IMG/VR virus record: IMGVR_UViG_3300025057_000003 | Coordinates: 51,585 to 115,584 of that record | Reading direction: 5' to 3' (one strand) | Source of the DNA: a virus | DNA: 64,000 bases | In this document: positions 12,101 through 62,363 of the stretch, piece by piece | How the letters are laid out: each line of letters opens with the position of its first letter | Numbering within the stretch: the stretch's first letter is position 1 | The notes under the pieces: generated by a model | The model's input: only the letters and a program-made list of their open reading frames with translations | Databases searched by the model: none | What the model was told of the DNA's origin: nothing | Position numbers and translations under genes: made by a program

Positions 12101-15100
12101 GAATACTATCTTAAGGATGGTGAGTTCTTTGAGTATAAAAACAACTTTGAAGACTATGTAAGATATATTAATAAAAAAGTTAAGAAGAAAGGAAGTACTT
12201 ATGCTGAAGCTGCAATGAAAGCTAAGAAAAGAAAAGGTAAACTTTTATCTGACGCAAAGTTTGAAGCAGCTAAAAAAAGAGGTTTTGATGTTCAGGCAAT
12301 TCATGCTTTAAGAATATTAAACCTTCCTTTAACTAAACCAGAATACAATAAATATGTAGAAACAACAGGAAGAGCTCCTTTTGCGGCAGGGTATAATAAT
12401 GAAATATTAGATGTTAAGTTTAGGCTTATGGGTCATGATGGTGTAACAACTTCTGCAGATGGAAGTACGCCTATTTCATATGAAGCAGCGAATCTTTTAC
12501 CATTAACTAACCCTAAAGATAGAACTGGCGTTTGGGAAATGATACAGACTGAAATGCCTGAGTTAGCTGAAACATTAGCTGAAGACAATTTAGATATAAA
12601 TAATTTACGTGGTAAGGGTATATCATTTGGAAATAATAAAGAGGGAGCCAAATCTATTGGTGCTGCTGTACTACCAAATTTGTATCTAAGTTTAATGCAA
12701 GAGGTAGATATAAGATTAGCTAAAGGTAGAGGCTATGAATTAAACTTGGGTGGTCAAGTATATGATGGTTTTTATAATTATGATCCAATAAAAAAACAGG
12801 CTAGAACTAGAGAATTACTAGAAGATGGATCAGAAGGTTTTAGAAAACAATATATTATATCTGCTTTGATTACAGCTATGACCGATAACGCCAAAGAAAG
12901 ACTTGCAAAAAAATTAGGTCTTAGTCAAAATGGTTTAGGTATTGTAACTGCTATGACAGCAATGGGTGTTCCAATTAAAACATCAATAGGAATGATGAAT
13001 CATCCTATAATAAGAAGAGCATATGAATTAGAAAAAAGAGCTCCTGAATTTGAATTTGATGTTAAAGAACATATTGAAGAAAAAATAACAAGCTTAAAAC
13101 TTGCCGGTAATCAATATGAATTATTTGAAGATGATGTTTCTGTTGGTGTAAATCAAGATAATCTAATAAAAGCTGTTAATGAACCAATGCTTTCATTTAG
13201 AAATGATGGAGAGTTGGAGCAAAAGTTAGATAACTTAGAAGAGTTTGAATTAGAAGATATAGGAAATAAAATGCTATTAGATATAGCAATATTAGAAGAG
13301 TTCCTAAAGGCATATGATATTGCATCATTCTTAAGACCAGTTGGAGATTTATTAAATTTATCAAAAGGTTTTGGTGTAGATACAGCTTCTATTGCTAAAG
13401 TTAAAAAAGCAAGACAAAAATTAAAGCTTGATTTAACTGATCAAGAGATGGCAAAGTTACCTCCAAACGAGGTTCCAATGTTTGATCTTAGAAAAGTATT
13501 TAGCAGTGATAGATGGCAAACAACAATGCTAGATATATATGATGAGTTTGTTGATAGCTTACTACCGAAAGTATTTCTTAATGAAAGCAAACCTTTTAAT
13601 AATATATTTACATCTTTTCAAGATAACTTTAAATATCTAAACAAAGAAGATAGAGCTATGGTAGAAAAAGATCTTCTATCATATATAACTATTTCTGGTT
13701 ACATGCATTGGTTAGGTCAGAATAAATCTTCTGTTTTAGGCATGCCTACAAATAAATTAATTTATCCTGAAGAAGGTCAAACTGATATTGTAGACGTATA
13801 TGAAAAACTTAAAACTGTAAATGGAGAAAAGTATAATTATTTCTTAGATGGTTTTGTGAGACCTGAGAGAGCAACTGATCCTGGTAATAAAACAGGTATT
13901 AGCATGCTAACTTCAAATACATTAACAACTTTAAATGATTCACAAAGGATAGATGTACAAAATGGATTTAAAGAGTTGTTTGTAGATCCTGCAACTAGAT
14001 ATGGTGCAATGCAGGTGCTTAATTATATGATAGTTAAAGATGGTCTACAACCTTTATATAGAAGTATAATGAATGCAGTTGATCCAGAAATGTTTGCAGA
14101 ATATTTAGGGACATTACCAAATACATCAAATGTCTTTGCAACTATGAGTGAAGCTCAAATGCAAAGTAATTTTGGAATGTCATTTAAAGAGTTAAAGCTT
14201 AACTTCTTAAAAGAATATGGTCTTCATCCAAAAACTGCAAGATTATTAAAATCAGGATGGGCTCCTAAAGAACTTGTACTAAATTCTAAAGCATTCTTTA
14301 CACAGAGTTTTGGAGAGTTTAAAAAGTCCACTGTAGAAAATAATCCAGATAAGCTTTTTGTAATATTTGATAATCAAGCAGGTGTTGGATCTTCAAATAA
14401 CAAAGAGGTTAGAGACTATCCTAATGTAATAAGCATTAATATTAAAAAGAATGCCGGTAGTGCTGAAACAGATTTCTATAATAAAGAAGAAGAATCTGCA
14501 GCAATACAACATATGGAAGCTATGATGGCTTACTTAGAACAAGCAGCAGAAGGTTATGATTCTGTAGTAATACAAGATAGAATAGCTGAAGAAGAGTTAA
14601 AAGGTATATTAAAATACACTCCGAATTTTCATGAAAACTTATTAAGTAAATTAGATAAGTTAGTTGGTTATAAACCAAAAGGCTTGACAGATAAAGACAA
14701 GAAGTCTGAAAGAAAGGCTGTAAATATAGCGGCAAAAAAGAAATCTGTGTTTATAAATAATACCGTATCTGGTAGAGCTGTATTAACTGTAGATATAGAA
14801 AAAGGTTTGAGCGGATCAGTAAATCCTTCTTTTAAAAATACAGATGATTTGTTTGCTGAAAGAAAACTTGCAGACCCTAAAAAGAAAGGTTTTGAATTTA
14901 CAACAAGAAGTCAGCAAATAGCAACAGCTAAGACTATATTTCAAATTGATAGTATTCCAGAAGGAAAGTATGTTCAGTATGTTGCAACATTCCCACAGAC
15001 AATAAGAGTAAATGTAGAGGGTGAAGGAAACAAATATTTTCAGTTGGTTAGATATGCTGGACCTGCATATGGAGAAATAGGACCTGGATTGTCTAGAGGT

Positions 15101-39392: not shown

Positions 39393-39457
39393 TAGTAAAA
39401 AAAGGGGTGGTGTGCAGACGTTCTGCACACCATTTCTAATCAATTATGGCTACCCCT
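39393..39457 (-). terminator. Nested hairpin with U-run between the 383-residue gene and the zinc-ribbon gene
   Basis: AGGGGT (39403-39408) pairs with ACCCCT (39452-39457) and encloses a strong 9-10-bp hairpin (39409-39418 with 39422-39431). Read leftward it ends in seven T. The outer arm takes in the stop codon of the upstream gene. It behaves as an intrinsic terminator with an added outer stem. Confidence 0.7.
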
Positions 39458-45499: not shown

Positions 45500-46477
45500 T
45501 TATTTATGTATAGTCTCCTTAAGGAGAGGTTTTAAATTAGCATGAACTTCATCAAAGCCATACTCTTTTACTGCATCTGATATATCTTTTGCTAGATCTA
45601 AAGCACAACCATTTATATCATAGTTCTTTTTATAAACAGCAATTGCTTTTTTACCGGCATCATCATTATCAAATAAAGTTATTACTTTTTTATATTTACT
45701 CTTTAGATTCTCAATTATATAAGGCTTAATCAAAGTATTCTCACTGTCTGGAGCAATGACCTCAAGATTATAACCAAATCCGGCTAGAGACATCACATCT
45801 TTTAATGAAGAAGCAATAACCAAATAAGGCTGCTTATACTCCAACTGATCTAAACCTTGAATATAAGATTCAATTTTGTAAAACTTAAACCCATCACGAA
45901 GAGGCTGATAGATTTTAAATATCTGACCATGTTTATTGTAATAACCATACATGTTCTTACCACGTATAGTCTTTTTTTCCACGGTCCCATTATCAGACTT
46001 TATTAAATTATAGTAATCAATAGGTCTAACATTATATTTAGATAGCATAGAGCTACCAATCCTGTATTGTAACCAGTAAACCGCATCATCCTGGTTCCAG
46101 GACCGTGTCTTTACTAGTTCAACTTCCCATTTAGGTTGAGGTTTAAATTCTATCTTAACTGCTCCATTTTGCGCTACAAATTTATTATAGTCATTGATCA
46201 TCTTTTCAACTGCAGAAGCATAATTTAAATCAAATATATCTTGTATAAGATTAATCTTGTTACCACCTTTACCGGTTGAAAAGTCTTTATACATATAGCA
46301 ACGTTTCATTTTATCTACATATATGCATAAACTAGCTGTACGTTCTGAAGGATTCCAAATAGATTTTATTTTTATATCCTGTCCACTAAGATGTTCATTG
46401 AGTTTTAAATAATACTGAAAAACCCAATAGCTAGGAACAGATGATTCGTTTGCAACTAAGTTTTTTGTACTAATCAT
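45500..46477 (-). CDS. DnaG-type primase (TOPRIM)
   Basis: 325 residues. A TOPRIM-like region runs from about 215: PYLVIASSLKDVMSL, ITLFDNDDAGKKAI (D270, D272, D273) and LAKDISDAV. The conserved acidic residue of the first TOPRIM motif seems to be Ser (S223/S224) here. Residues 30-90 hold a DnaG-like N-terminal region (SERTASLCIYVDKMKRCYMY, DFSTGKGGNKINLIQDIF). It would make primers for the family B polymerase together with the DnaB-like helicase. Confidence 0.8.
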   Translation of the reverse strand: MISTKNLVANESSVPSYWVFQYYLKLNEHLSGQDIKIKSIWNPSERTASLCIYVDKMKRCYMYKDFSTGKGGNKINLIQDIFDLNYASAVEKMINDYNKFVAQNGAVKIEFKPQPKWEVELVKTRSWNQDDAVYWLQYRIGSSMLSKYNVRPIDYYNLIKSDNGTVEKKTIRGKNMYGYYNKHGQIFKIYQPLRDGFKFYKIESYIQGLDQLEYKQPYLVIASSLKDVMSLAGFGYNLEVIAPDSENTLIKPYIIENLKSKYKKVITLFDNDDAGKKAIAVYKKNYDINGCALDLAKDISDAVKEYGFDEVHANLKPLLKETIHK

Positions 46478-46487
46478 ATTTCAAATT

Positions 46488-46521
46488 TAAAAAAAAATTG
46501 CCGGCACAAGACCGGCAATTT
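46488..46521 (-). terminator. Intrinsic terminator after the small lipoprotein gene
   Basis: A perfect hairpin, AAATTGCCGG (46495-46504) with CCGGCAATTT (46512-46521), followed leftward by nine T. It ends the lipoprotein transcript just before the primase gene. Confidence 0.9.
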
Positions 46522-46532
46522 CAAACCCTAAA

Positions 46533-46715
46533 CTATTCTACAGTTTCTATAGATAATGAATCAGCTTCTACAGCTGGTTCTTCAGCTGGTGCTTCTTCTA
46601 CACTAGAACTTTCTGAAACTTCTACTTTTTCAGCTGAATCTGTGCATTCTCCTTTGCTACAAGACACAAGAGTTAACGCACTTACCGCAATAAAACTTAA
46701 AAATAACTTTTTCAT
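46533..46715 (-). CDS. Small secreted lipoprotein
   Basis: 60 residues: a signal peptide MKKLFLSFIAVSALTLVSC with lipobox LVSC (Cys 19), then an acidic, Glu/Ser-rich mature part of 40 residues. The gene is isolated by a structured RNA element before it and a strong terminator after it, so it is likely to be its own transcription unit. Phage lipoproteins often block superinfection or alter the surface; this role is inferred only. Confidence 0.75.
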   Translation of the reverse strand: MKKLFLSFIAVSALTLVSCSKGECTDSAEKVEVSESSSVEEAPAEEPAVEADSLSIETVE

Positions 46716-46740: not shown

Positions 46741-46805
46741 AAAAGTAGAGGGGACACGCCAAACAGTCCCCCTGAATTAGTGATTTAGGCCTACTAAAAC
46801 TACTT
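46741..46805 (-). ncRNA. Structured three-way-junction RNA element, copy A
   Basis: Read leftward: P1 AAGTAG/CTACTT (46800-46805 with 46743-46748), P2 TTAGT/ACTAA (46793-46797 with 46777-46781), P3 GGGGA/TCCCC (46667 region equivalent: 46767-46771... with 46750-46754), then a U-run. The P2 loop AGGCCTAAATC and P3 loop CTGTTTGGCGTG share GGC/GCC complementarity that could kiss. A homologous copy lies at 55442-55508. It sits between the 221-residue SSB-like gene and the lipoprotein gene and may be a terminator, 3'-end stabiliser or 5'-leader switch. Confidence 0.55.
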
Positions 46806-46853
46806 GCTTGTTATGTTTTACATTAAAACACCCGCGCACGCAGGAAAAAAAAT

Positions 46854-47519
46854 TTATAGATCAAAGTCATCCCCTGTATTAGAACTAGCAGGTTCAAAAC
46901 TTGATGTAGTTTGAGTTTTCTTTAACTCTTTTACATGATCTTCTTTAGAAAACTTATATAATTTTGAATTTTCTACATCCAAAGCTTCTAATGAAACTCC
47001 GTCTTTAGAATTTCTTGGTAAGAATAAGTCATAGTTAATATAACCTTCCTTATTTTCCCACTCTCTACCGCCAACACATGCATTTATGAATGTATCTCCA
47101 GATAAAACGGAATCTGCAGATTTCATAAATTGTTCAATAGTGTCAGCTTCAATCATATCTAAGTCATCACGCTTATTTAATACTTCAGATAAATAAATCA
47201 TAGATTTAAGAACTTCTGTATCTCTTTTTACTTCTCTACCACTTGGTAAAGTAGCATCTTTAAACGGATATGGACTTAATCTAATCCTACCAACTTGACC
47301 TTCATATCTAGGCCCATTTGCATCATTAGGGTCTATAAGAAAACCCTCAAACTCTCCGCCTACTGGCTCTGATTCTACATGCAATACTACATTATATGCA
47401 TCCTTATCATAAGGTGTTTGATCAAATGTGATGCTATTAATTTTTACTTTCTGATTACCTACTCCGATAACAGGTCTTGCTTTGCCTGAACCGGCACTCA
47501 TGTCTTTTGTACTTAACAT
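46854..47519 (-). CDS. Single-stranded-DNA-binding-like protein with acidic tail
   Basis: 221 residues. A beta-rich body (VKINSITFDQTPYDKDAYNV, GRIRLSPYPF) ends in a Ser/Asn linker and the acidic, aromatic tip GDDFDL, as in SSB proteins that recruit partners by their C-terminus. It lies just after the Sak4-like ATPase gene, as SSB and recombinase often do. No OB-fold motif can be proved by eye. Confidence 0.5.
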   Translation of the reverse strand: MLSTKDMSAGSGKARPVIGVGNQKVKINSITFDQTPYDKDAYNVVLHVESEPVGGEFEGFLIDPNDANGPRYEGQVGRIRLSPYPFKDATLPSGREVKRDTEVLKSMIYLSEVLNKRDDLDMIEADTIEQFMKSADSVLSGDTFINACVGGREWENKEGYINYDLFLPRNSKDGVSLEALDVENSKLYKFSKEDHVKELKKTQTTSSFEPASSNTGDDFDL

Positions 47520-54940: not shown

Positions 54941-55162
54941 CTATTTAAATCTTACAGTGTTATCATCTATTTTAATAAATTCATATCCACATTTTGTACA
55001 TGATAGATCTACTGAACTATATTGAACCAGTTTATCTTTCATACAATTTGGACATAATATATTTGTGGGTGATGTAACATCATTTATTTCACGCATGTAT
55101 TCTGTATACTTTTCTGGATTTTGTTCCAGTTGTTGCATGAAAAGTTCTTTCATTCTTCCCAT
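54941..55162 (-). CDS. Small zinc-ribbon protein
   Basis: 73 residues: a helical start, then CPNCMKDKLVQYSSVDLSCTKCGYEF, a two-CxxC zinc ribbon. It overlaps the ClpS gene stop by one base. Possible nucleic-acid or protein-binding adaptor. Confidence 0.65.
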   Translation of the reverse strand: MGRMKELFMQQLEQNPEKYTEYMREINDVTSPTNILCPNCMKDKLVQYSSVDLSCTKCGYEFIKIDDNTVRFK

Positions 55163-55428
55163 TATTCTATTTCTGCATTTAATTTATGCACTAACAATTG
55201 TGCTTTAATAGGTATTAAATCTAAAAGGTCACCTGTTTTAACTGAGCATTTACCATTATTGTGTACAATATTAGCACACTGCTCTGCTTGTATAGGTGTA
55301 TGATCACAATACAACACAAGACATGTTATAACATGTTCAAATGTGTTGACATCATCATTATATAAAATGATAGATTTCTTATCACTCAATGCACTCTTAA
55401 GATTTTCTTCTAATTCTTTTACATTCAT
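55162..55428 (-). CDS. clpS: ClpS adaptor protein (N-end rule)
   Basis: 88 residues. IILYNDDVNTFEHVITCLV and QCANIVHNNGKCSVKTG match the Bacteroidota ClpS form. The pocket residues for N-degrons are kept: N24, D25, D26 and H56. An N-terminal extension of about 18 residues remains for engaging the host ClpA/ClpC ring. It could redirect host ClpAP/ClpCP to chosen substrates, or shield them. It follows structured RNA copy B, which lies in its leader. Confidence 0.88.
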   Translation of the reverse strand: MNVKELEENLKSALSDKKSIILYNDDVNTFEHVITCLVLYCDHTPIQAEQCANIVHNNGKCSVKTGDLLDLIPIKAQLLVHKLNAEIE

Positions 55429-55441
55429 AATAATTAAGAAT

Positions 55442-55508
55442 TTGCGGGGGAAAACTTGCCTTACAGTCTCCCCTATTTATTCAGTGATCTGGCCTACTGA
55501 AACCCGCT
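55442..55508 (-). ncRNA. Structured three-way-junction RNA element, copy B
   Basis: Read leftward: P1 GCGGG/CCCGC (55503-55507 with 55444-55448), P2 TTCAGT/ACTGAA (55496-55501 with 55480-55485), P3 GGGGA/TCCCC (55469-55473 with 55447-55451; P1 and P3 compete for two C). It shares AGTAGGCC, ATCACT, GGGG and CTGT..GGC with copy A at 46.7 kb. One P2 pair is U-A in A and C-G in B. There is no U-run, and it lies 15-80 bases before the ClpS start. Confidence 0.55.
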
Positions 55509-55516
55509 AATTCAAC

Positions 55517-56617
55517 TTAAGTATTTAAAGGATTAAAATATTGTATTTTACTCTGATCAAATGTTTTTAGTGCGTCTTCAACCCATTTCTCATCCTGAGT
55601 GCCTTTATAACATAATATATGACACACAGCTTGTTGATCTGGTGATAAACGTAGTAGTCTACCTATTCTTTGTGCACTTTTCCTATTATTACCATAAGCA
55701 TGCATAATAATACCTTGACGCAGATTAGGAATAGATATACCCTCACTGAGCTGTAATACACAAGATAGTTTATCAATTCTTCCATCACTAAATAATTCTA
55801 AGTTTTCTTCTGACTTTGAGTTCCCAGAATGGTAACTATGTTTACACATTCTATCTGCTTGAGCCTGCGTATTTGCAAATATAATACACTTACTACTTAT
55901 GTTGTTTAACATTCCTTTTAAGTATTCTTCTTTAGTCTTATATTCCATTAAACCACGCATTCTCATAATTGCAGCCATTTGTTGCTGCTTTGCACTTAGG
56001 GCATCTCTACAACGGTTAGTTAAATAACCATAGTCTAGTGCTTCTGATGTATACCATACACCCCCATTTTTGGATTTCTTTGCTAAATCTTTAATTTTAG
56101 ATAATTCCAGTTGATGAATAATTATTTTATAATCATTTAAGATATTGCTATCTGTAGCTTCATCTACGGAAAACTCAAATATAATAGGGCAGTATTTATT
56201 TACCATTTTATATTTAACTGAAGATTTTCTTGCTGGTGGAGTACCAGTTAAACCTAGTATTTTACCATTAAACTGATCTAAAAACTCTTCATGAGACTCT
56301 AATAAACTATGACATTCATCTAGATAGACTATATCATATTCTTTAGGATCTTGTTTATTAAGAGATAAATAAGTTGTAAATGTAAAATGACTTTCTAATG
56401 CAGTTAATTCCATCTTCTCAAGCTCATCTAACCATGCATCTTTAACTGATAATTTTGGTATAACAACCAAAGCCCGTATAAAGGAGTTATAATTTTTCTG
56501 GAAATGCTGTATAGCAATTCTAGTTTTACCAACTCCCATTGAAATCCCTAAGCCACAGCGTTTGTGACTTAGGGTTTTCTCTAAAGCTTCCTGTTGTACT
56601 TTTTCTCTATTTGACAT
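55517..56617 (-). CDS. SF2 DNA/RNA helicase (DECH-box)
   Basis: 366 residues from ATG 56617 (MSNREKVQQEALEK), which shortens the overlap with the upstream gene to 11 bases; an earlier ATG at 56650 is less likely. Motif I GISMGVGKTRIA, motif II YLDECHS, motif III LTGTPPA, motif VI SAQRIGRLLRLS. The form is that of small phage UvsW/SNF2-like helicases that remodel forks or recombination intermediates. Confidence 0.83.
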   Translation of the reverse strand: MSNREKVQQEALEKTLSHKRCGLGISMGVGKTRIAIQHFQKNYNSFIRALVVIPKLSVKDAWLDELEKMELTALESHFTFTTYLSLNKQDPKEYDIVYLDECHSLLESHEEFLDQFNGKILGLTGTPPARKSSVKYKMVNKYCPIIFEFSVDEATDSNILNDYKIIIHQLELSKIKDLAKKSKNGGVWYTSEALDYGYLTNRCRDALSAKQQQMAAIMRMRGLMEYKTKEEYLKGMLNNISSKCIIFANTQAQADRMCKHSYHSGNSKSEENLELFSDGRIDKLSCVLQLSEGISIPNLRQGIIMHAYGNNRKSAQRIGRLLRLSPDQQAVCHILCYKGTQDEKWVEDALKTFDQSKIQYFNPLNT

Positions 56618-57314
56618 AATATTTAAAATCATAATATGCATTGTACTCAAAAGTACAATCTTTTTGCATCTTTTTGATCATATCATCTGTAAGCCTATAT
56701 GCTTCAGTTGGAGCATAATAGCTTGCAAAATTTTCCGCTTGTGGGCCAGCTCCAATATTATGTATAACCAAATACTCATTAGTACCTTCTATACGTATAT
56801 TGCTTACTATTCCCGTGTGTCCGGCACCAATTTGATCCCAGAATAAAATATCACCAGGTTTATATTTACCATTTGCTGGTATCTTTGCACCTAGACCTGT
56901 AAGATAGGTCTGGATATTTTGAGTTCTTCTATGATCAATATTTCTATCTATAGTTTTTGTACGATATCTTTTATTATAATCAGATAACCTTAATTTCATA
57001 TCTTCATGAATTAATTCTTGTAAATCAATATCAATACATCTTAAAGCTCTGATTACAACATCAGTACAAACACCTTGTTGGTATCCAGGATCACCTCCTG
57101 GATATCCAATCTTAACCCAACTTCCATCATAAACAGTATTATGTTTAGTTTGTAACTCAGCATGATAAGCAGCTTTTTCTAAACTTGGTATACTATCTGT
57201 TCTTATTAACTGATTTAAAGTATATCTAGTGGGTCTATCATTTTCATCTACATGTGAACATGCTACTGCATTAAATCCTATTACTATTAATGACAATAAA
57301 ATTAACTTTTTCAT
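56607..57314 (-). CDS. DUF1287-family exported protein
   Basis: 235 residues: a signal peptide MKKLILLSLIVIGFNAVAC (possible lipidation at the Cys), then WVKIGYPGGDPGYQQGVCTD, VVIRALRCIDIDLQELIHED, NIDHRRTQNIQTYL and PGDILFWDQIGAGHTGIVSN. These follow DUF1287, an NlpC/P60-like fold with a Cys (GVCTD) and His (GHTGI) that act on peptide bonds of the cell wall. A lysis or entry role is plausible. Confidence 0.8.
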   Translation of the reverse strand: MKKLILLSLIVIGFNAVACSHVDENDRPTRYTLNQLIRTDSIPSLEKAAYHAELQTKHNTVYDGSWVKIGYPGGDPGYQQGVCTDVVIRALRCIDIDLQELIHEDMKLRLSDYNKRYRTKTIDRNIDHRRTQNIQTYLTGLGAKIPANGKYKPGDILFWDQIGAGHTGIVSNIRIEGTNEYLVIHNIGAGPQAENFASYYAPTEAYRLTDDMIKKMQKDCTFEYNAYYDFKYYVK

Positions 57315-59023: not shown

Positions 59024-59044
59024 AATATATTGGTTTTAATTAAT

Positions 59045-59118
59045 AAAAAAAGGGGTCTTCCAGCTATGATTTTACTGGAAGATACCCCCGTCTGCTTAAT
59101 ATCACTGACTTTACAGTG
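59045..59118 (-). terminator. Terminator with a preceding small hairpin
   Basis: Read leftward: CACTG/CAGTG (59103-59107 with 59114-59118), then TCTTCCAG/CTGGAAGA extended by GGGG/CCCC (59052-59063 with 59075-59088), then seven T. It ends the transcript of the 185-residue gene. Confidence 0.75.
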
Positions 59119-59173
59119 CCCAATCTTTGGATACAATGCCATTAAGGACTTACATAATCACCTGTATTGGCTT

Positions 59174-61023: not shown

Positions 61024-61033
61024 TTAATTGTTT

Positions 61034-61154
61034 TTTTAAAGGTAAGAACGCAGGCAGGCACCACACCTACCTGCATCACTTACCTACCACTCATCAACCT
61101 AACCAATGTTGATTTTTAATACTGGTATTGTTAGTATACGGTATACCGGAATTA
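61034..61154 (-). other. Hairpin-rich intergenic segment
   Basis: Three hairpins in a row, read leftward: AATAC/GTATT, ATCAAC/GTTGAT (61091-61111), and a two-tier one, GGTAAG/CTTACC (61041-61046 with 61079-61084) with an inner 9-base arm GCAGG-AGG (61050-61058 with 61066-61074). There is no clear U-run. It lies between the 168- and 154-residue genes and may be a terminator/leader pair. Confidence 0.5.
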
Positions 61155-62331: not shown

Positions 62332-62356
62332 AAAAAAATCCCCGGACTTTCCGGGG
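62332..62356 (-). terminator. Intrinsic terminator
   Basis: CCCCGG (62340-62345) with CCGGGG (62351-62356), loop of 5, then seven T leftward, right after the 73-residue membrane gene. A textbook form. Confidence 0.92.
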
Positions 62357-62363
62357 AATATGT

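Follow-up and report, generated by a model that had tools for sequence, protein, structure and literature searches.

A strongly covarying three-helix RNA element between replication genes of marine crAss-like phages, a possible tRNA-like intercistronic signal

Gene neighborhood and fold of two intergenic elements

The window analyzed here, a stretch of 64,000 nucleotides (positions 51585-115584 of a 115.6-kb virus record), has the gene set of a crAss-like phage. Its rightward genes include those for giant proteins of 5244 and 1898 aa, and its leftward replication block encodes a DNA polymerase (phrog_1252), an ATPase, an HNH nuclease, a Toprim primase, and a helicase that matches Flavobacterium and Bacteroides phages, including Crassvirales, in INPHARED. 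Two short intergenic elements, A and B, are found on the minus strand (Table 1), one between the gene of an SSB-like protein and that of a lipoprotein-like protein ahead of the primase, the other between the helicase gene and the gene of a phage ClpS-like protein. The protein upstream of A has no Pfam match and no PHROG match and is called SSB-like because of its acidic tail and its location ahead of the primase. Further strong leftward intergenic hairpins, some with T-runs after them, occur at positions 59024-59173, 61024-61154, 39408-39432, and 62339-62357 of the window; terminator-like sites exceed the shuffled expectation (17 vs 5.6 and 11 vs 3.9).

According to the preliminary description of this DNA, A and B are homologous structured RNAs with three helices (P1, P2, and P3) around a three-way junction. 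Both were located on the minus strand as described, with all three helices predicted by RNAfold in each, and these helices covary in 12 copies (see below). As had also been noted, P1 is wholly different between A and B yet paired in both, one P2 pair differs (U-A in A, C-G in B), and the loop sequences are kept, L2 (AGGCC..ATC) and L3 (TGT..GGC) being common to the two. The window contains the combination AGTAGGCC-N-ATCACT twice, and 100 shuffles do not contain it at all. P1 of B is continued beyond an A-A mismatch by an outer extension, of which L112 keeps all 5 pairs with one pair altered on both sides. By fold energy B scores well (z -3.33) and A does not stand out (z -0.79); since this measure is indecisive alone, the case for the element rests on the comparison of copies.

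Table 1. Elements A and B and the features around them (positions in the window)
Feature	Position	Strand	Evidence or remark
Element A, 63 nt	46805-46743	-	sequence, covariance-model match 83.7 bits, covariation
A, P1	46805-46800/46748-46743	-	then U-run
A, P2	46797-46793/46781-46777	-	
A, L2	46792-46782	-	AGGCCTAAATC
A, P3	46771-46766/46755-46750	-	
A, L3	46765-46756	-	TGTTTGGCGT
Element B, 64 nt	55507-55444	-	sequence, covariance-model match 66.7 bits, covariation
B, P1	55507-55504/55447-55444	-	no U-run
B, P2	55501-55496/55485-55480	-	
B, L2	55495-55486	-	AGGCCAGATC
B, P3	55473-55466/55455-55448	-	
B, L3	55465-55456	-	TGTAAGGCAA
B, outer 5-bp P1 extension	55438..55513	-	GAATT 55513-55509 with AATTC 55442-55438; sequence, fold
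Gene upstream of A, 221-aa SSB-like protein	46854..47519	-	acidic DDFDL tail
Gene downstream of A, 60-aa lipoprotein-like protein	46533..46715	-	
Intrinsic-terminator-like hairpin between lipoprotein and primase genes	46494..46522	-	distinct from element A
Toprim primase	45500..46477	-	Pfam Toprim_2
Gene upstream of B, helicase	55517..56650	-	Pfam ResIII/Helicase_C
Gene downstream of B, phage ClpS-like protein	55162..55428	-	Pfam ClpS 1.7e-14

Copies and genomic sites

Copies were gathered by pattern scans of IMG/VR and from relatives fetched by protein, followed by covariance-model searches; nearly all matches listed in the first viral scan were chance, and contigs were retained only if L3 and stems followed downstream. 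At least 12 distinct versions (A, B, L134/L073, L074/L135, L112, L133, L138, L139, L148, L167, L211, and L395) occur at six intergenic sites in marine crAss-like phage contigs, and near letter-for-letter repeats of A are present on several more contigs. The preliminary description had looked to crAss-like phages and Bacteroidota for further copies; the phages have them, and the covariance model found none in the Bacteroidota genomes searched, which were 395 genomes of Bacteroidia. Model matches of 28-32 bits in 2 of these 395 genomes run antisense within coding genes and have no loop pair, those of 12-13 bits in phi14:2 and cr126_1 likewise lack it, and the 18-bit matches in L299-L302 are within an open reading frame. 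There was also no copy in five isolate or reference phage genomes, no blastn match in INPHARED, no new copy from a relaxed scan for the kiss between the loops, and none from a pattern scan of a genome collection, all 10 matches of which were unstructured chance.

All six sites are intergenic and co-oriented with both flanking genes. The element follows the SSB-like gene and precedes the primase or lipoprotein gene at one site (in L134 the lipoprotein-like gene is absent and the primase comes straight after the element), stands between helicase and ClpS at another, and lies between an ATPase gene and a 346-374-aa gene at another (L074, L135, and L138), with three further sites in L133, L148, and L167. 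Replication genes are held in common with the window by L167, L148, L138, and L135, and the helicase and two other genes by L133. Across copies the element measures 63-69 nt, and on the 3' strand L3 lies 12-15 nt from the foot of P1 despite varying P1 and P3 lengths. P1 starts 6-10 nt past the stop codon in 8 of the 12 versions and ends 14-27 nt ahead of the start codon at three sites; the distance to the next start codon is 88-544 nt at L133, L148, and L167.

Genomes carry one to two copies, and the distribution among close relatives is patchy. Within the fetched stretch of 80 relatives with helicases 67-91% identical, the element occurs only in L211 and L212 (the L112 contig). L209, the closest relative by helicase (91%), has neither the element nor ClpS, so that the pair resembles an inserted module there. 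A ClpS-specific role was dropped because ClpS is found without the element (L210, L381, and L391) and five of the six sites carry other genes.

Covariation and tests of known RNA classes

A hand alignment of the 12 copies has 97.2% of the cells paired in P1, 98.5% in P2, and 100% in P3. When arms are swapped between copies the values are 61.7, 77.9, and 84.0%, and those observed were never reached in 5000 trials. The model alignment gives a covariation score of 0.568 against 0.227 when shuffled and at most 0.203 with the partners slid, and 46 cells changed on both sides against 13 in shuffles; each of these two values was reached by 0 of 500 shuffles, counts that are not probabilities because related copies are not independent. 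The reason for adding the arm-swap test and the slid controls is that this alignment is fitted to the model's own structure and therefore leans to it. Covariation, on which the preliminary description had staked its proposal, is thus far above the controls.

Compensatory changes affect every helix position except the closing C-G of P3 and the outermost pairs of P2 and P3, which are present in some copies only. Nine different 5' arms of P1 occur among the copies, and the closing pair of P2, apparently invariant as U-A, is C-G in L395 (a viral scan with P2 closed by C-G ran into an unrelated repeated sequence, and a structural scan of the loci gave no new copy among the matches listed). The GCC:GGC kiss between L2 and L3, suggested beforehand from complementarity, is GCU:AGC in L211, changed on both sides, and resting on one compensatory event it is supported, not proved. 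G-U pairs occur 11 times and A-C pairs 0 times in the helices when read on the gene strand, which indicates that the selected strand is the one transcribed with the genes. About 17 conserved letters are confined to L2 and L3; the stems are variable, and the letters of the junction strands also vary between copies. The element is almost certainly a selected RNA structure and constitutes a new RNA family with strong covariation.

No Rfam family matches the element, ribozyme families included, and the tRNA family (RF00005) has no match at it. By sequence the element is not a tRNA: it has no anticodon arm, TGTWWGGCGT stands instead of a TTCRANY loop, and the sequence 3' of P1 is not conserved among copies and has no conserved 3' ACA. 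ARAGORN found 0 tRNAs in the window and the tested copy-bearing loci, save for one tRNA-Asn, unrelated, in L148. Three copies (A, L134, and L074) have a U-run after P1, L138 and L139 have a weaker or partial one, and B, L112, L133, L148, L167, L211, and L395 have none; because only some copies have it, the element is not an intrinsic terminator as a class, and the earlier impression that these are other than plain terminators holds.

RNAs in the same gap of relatives

In the relatives examined, the gap ahead of the primase gene nearly always contains folded RNA, either a hairpin or something larger. Marine relatives have A-type elements (type i), other folded RNAs (types ii-v), or plain hairpins there; plain hairpins occur in many of them, many with U-runs, and phi14:2 has a plain hairpin too. 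In the mostly gut-derived relatives (Suoliviridae; loci L518-L530), a tRNA or tRNA-like RNA precedes the primase in 11 of 12. Of 13 primase slots, 11 have a T arm (11 of 12 if phi14:2 is left aside), where shuffles would give 0.36 slots; outside the slots two T-arm motifs occur in 37.6 kb. The gap contains two annotated tRNA-Val in cr124_1 and a tRNA-Cys in a Bohxovirus. The tRNA family of Rfam matches there in cr4_1 and cr52_1, in both with large inserts, and in cr115_1, where the anticodon arm is lacking; cr6_1 has only a 42-nt minihelix with a 7-bp acceptor and a 5-bp T arm. Reduced tRNA-like RNAs of this kind (acceptor plus T arm) are mostly missed by ARAGORN. In cr6_1 and cr109_1, RNAs of similar tRNA-like form also precede the DNA polymerase (L532:1849, plus strand; L533:38861, minus strand).

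The type ii RNA of the ssb-primase slot (L314:4725-4808 and L312:4698-4781) has a three-helix layout too; its 6-nt loops AGTCCT and AGGACT are complementary, and in P3 a C-G pair is exchanged for U-A in a compensatory change. L314 and L139 belong to one contig, and the helicase site there, in L139, carries the type i element. In the same slot, type iii (L309, L323:4688-4763, and L324:3367-3440) has a conserved AGTATGGTTAAGACCGGCATCAACCGAA within an AAGGCA/TGCCTT stem and then a T-run. Type iv, with the motif CCAGACGTGG, is known from L327, L328, L352, L354, L235/L236 (about 12880-12960), and L133 (11893-11903, minus strand) and is in the ssb-primase slot in most; in L133 it shares one noncoding stretch of ~700 nt with a type i element. 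Type v, a hairpin of the same slot, keeps its GTGGTTGACT loop while the stem varies (L362, L366-L372, L377, L379, L221, L234, and L264). The small hairpin CCTGCGTGCGCGGG upstream of A (window 46831-46844) also occurs, in altered form, in the type ii allele L314 and is therefore a separate conserved feature of the ssb-primase slot.

A possible role in intercistronic punctuation

The preliminary description had left a ligand-, protein-, or RNase-related function open; the evidence favors, but does not prove, RNase processing or protein recognition over a ligand. We tentatively propose, with somewhat less than even confidence, that the element is an intercistronic punctuation or processing element that acts like a tRNA-like structure. 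A and B are two copies of one RNA module, which would act in cis between two replication-region cistrons that presumably lie on one polycistronic RNA. Around the junction, P1 and P3 may be stacked end to end with P2 as a side arm, and L2 and L3 would be docked through the GCC:GGC kiss. This compact fold would be recognized by a processing RNase or a protein, and processing would set the boundary between the upstream and downstream messages; the enzyme could be of the RNase P/Z type, as in tRNA punctuation, the element itself not being a tRNA.

The order of the helices is that of a tRNA lacking its anticodon arm, P1 corresponding to the acceptor stem, P2 to the D arm, and P3 to the T arm; on the 3' side P3 runs into P1 with at most a few intervening nucleotides. 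In tRNA, the acceptor and T arm form a stack of about 12 bp and are the part recognized by RNase P and RNase Z. It is this helix order, together with the tRNAs and tRNA-like RNAs at the same primase slot, that leads us to propose a tRNA-like processing signal, and the link to the RNAs of relatives rests on position and helix order, not on homology. The plain hairpins at the same slot weaken the slot argument, as a simple terminator or stabilizer would explain them too, and the long distance to the next start codon at L133, L148, and L167 counts against punctuation. Replication genes of Crassvirales are read by the virion RNA polymerase (PMC10136315), so that message boundaries need not depend on bacterial intrinsic terminators. 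More doubtful is the wider proposal that Crassvirales punctuate the replication transcripts of this polymerase with tRNA-like RNAs, which would be true tRNAs and degenerate acceptor/T-arm minihelices in gut phages and a new kissing three-helix mimic of the tRNA shape, without tRNA sequence, in the marine lineage of the window.

The element could instead be the site of an RNA-binding protein of phage or host that controls translation or stability and puts several replication-region genes under one regulator. This is unlikely, although sequence-conserved loops on freely varying stems, the closeness of P1 to the start codon at three sites, and the low copy number per genome would all suit it: there is no candidate protein, three sites are far from the next start codon, and the element is patchy among close relatives. 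A terminator or 3'-end stabilizer of the upstream message, with an elaborate top, seems less probable again. It draws on the U-runs of some copies and on the plain hairpins, many with U-runs, at the same slot in relatives, but other copies, B among them, have no U-run, terminators need neither conserved loops nor a kiss, and stabilizing a 3' end would alone leave the near-invariant loop letters unexplained. Likeness to any Rfam ribozyme is absent, as is any strictly conserved single-stranded site beyond the loops, and a new small self-cleaving ribozyme with an active site made from L2 and L3 is thus improbable, despite the conserved letters in two docked loops, the variable stems, the scattered contexts, and a size of 65 nt.

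A put- or EAR-like antitermination RNA would make the polymerase resistant to later terminators, and the position of the element inside long gene runs and a strong terminator-like hairpin 220 nt past A would agree with this. In L134, however, the primase follows directly with no lipoprotein gene or terminator between, no strong intergenic terminator comes soon after B, and the polymerase here is probably the virion enzyme, all of which make antitermination quite improbable. A metabolite riboswitch, with the three helices and docked L2 and L3 of the purine riboswitch plan, is unlikely, and markedly so, because the junction strands, the ligand-binding place in such RNAs, vary and the downstream genes are unrelated (lipoprotein or primase, ClpS, and unknowns); nor is there a common expression platform. 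We give least credence to a hairpin of single-stranded DNA with a priming or origin function, a reading prompted by the location among replication genes with the primase beside A: at six sites the element is always co-oriented with the flanking genes and between stop and start codons, and the gene-strand bias of G-U pairs fits RNA, though G-T pairs form in single-stranded DNA too.

The element is a new RNA family, and the phage order that carries it is among the most abundant. It offers a concrete, assayable candidate for how these phages, whose replication genes are read by their own virion polymerase, split up a long transcript. Considered alongside the tRNA-like RNAs at the same place in gut relatives, it opens tRNA-type punctuation of phage operons to direct test, and if the proposed mechanism is true, it would be a new variant of tRNA-like processing signals.

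Comparison with known systems

The open-access literature searched, outside which most subscription journals lie, held no description of the elements or of the tRNA-like slot. T4-type PeSLs are mobile intergenic cassettes of promoter and stem-loop that are repeated among phage genes; they and the element are both repeated intergenic stem-loop modules, but the element has no attached promoter and its tertiary loops are conserved. The purine riboswitch has a P1-P2-P3 plan with L2-L3 docking and is alike in its three-way layout, whereas the conserved letters of the element are in the loops and not in the junction, Rfam gives no match, and the downstream genes are unrelated.

The tRNAs and tRNA-like RNAs before the primase of gut Crassvirales (RF00005 or T arm) occupy the same genome slot and gene strand as the element and have the same helix order, namely an outer stem, a side arm, a linker, and a third stem joined to the outer one. 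Those of cr115_1 and cr6_1 also lack the anticodon arm. The element differs from them in having no T-loop, no ACA end, no tRNA sequence, and other stem lengths, and in its Watson-Crick kiss in place of D-loop/T-loop contacts. RNase P cleavage of polycistronic operon mRNA is the subject of reference 223 in PMC11143913, and the same reference list cites RNase P action on a plant-virus tRNA-like structure. With tRNA punctuation itself the element may share the principle proposed here, by which a tRNA-like fold between cistrons serves as the processing signal, with the difference that the element is not a tRNA and its processing is predicted.
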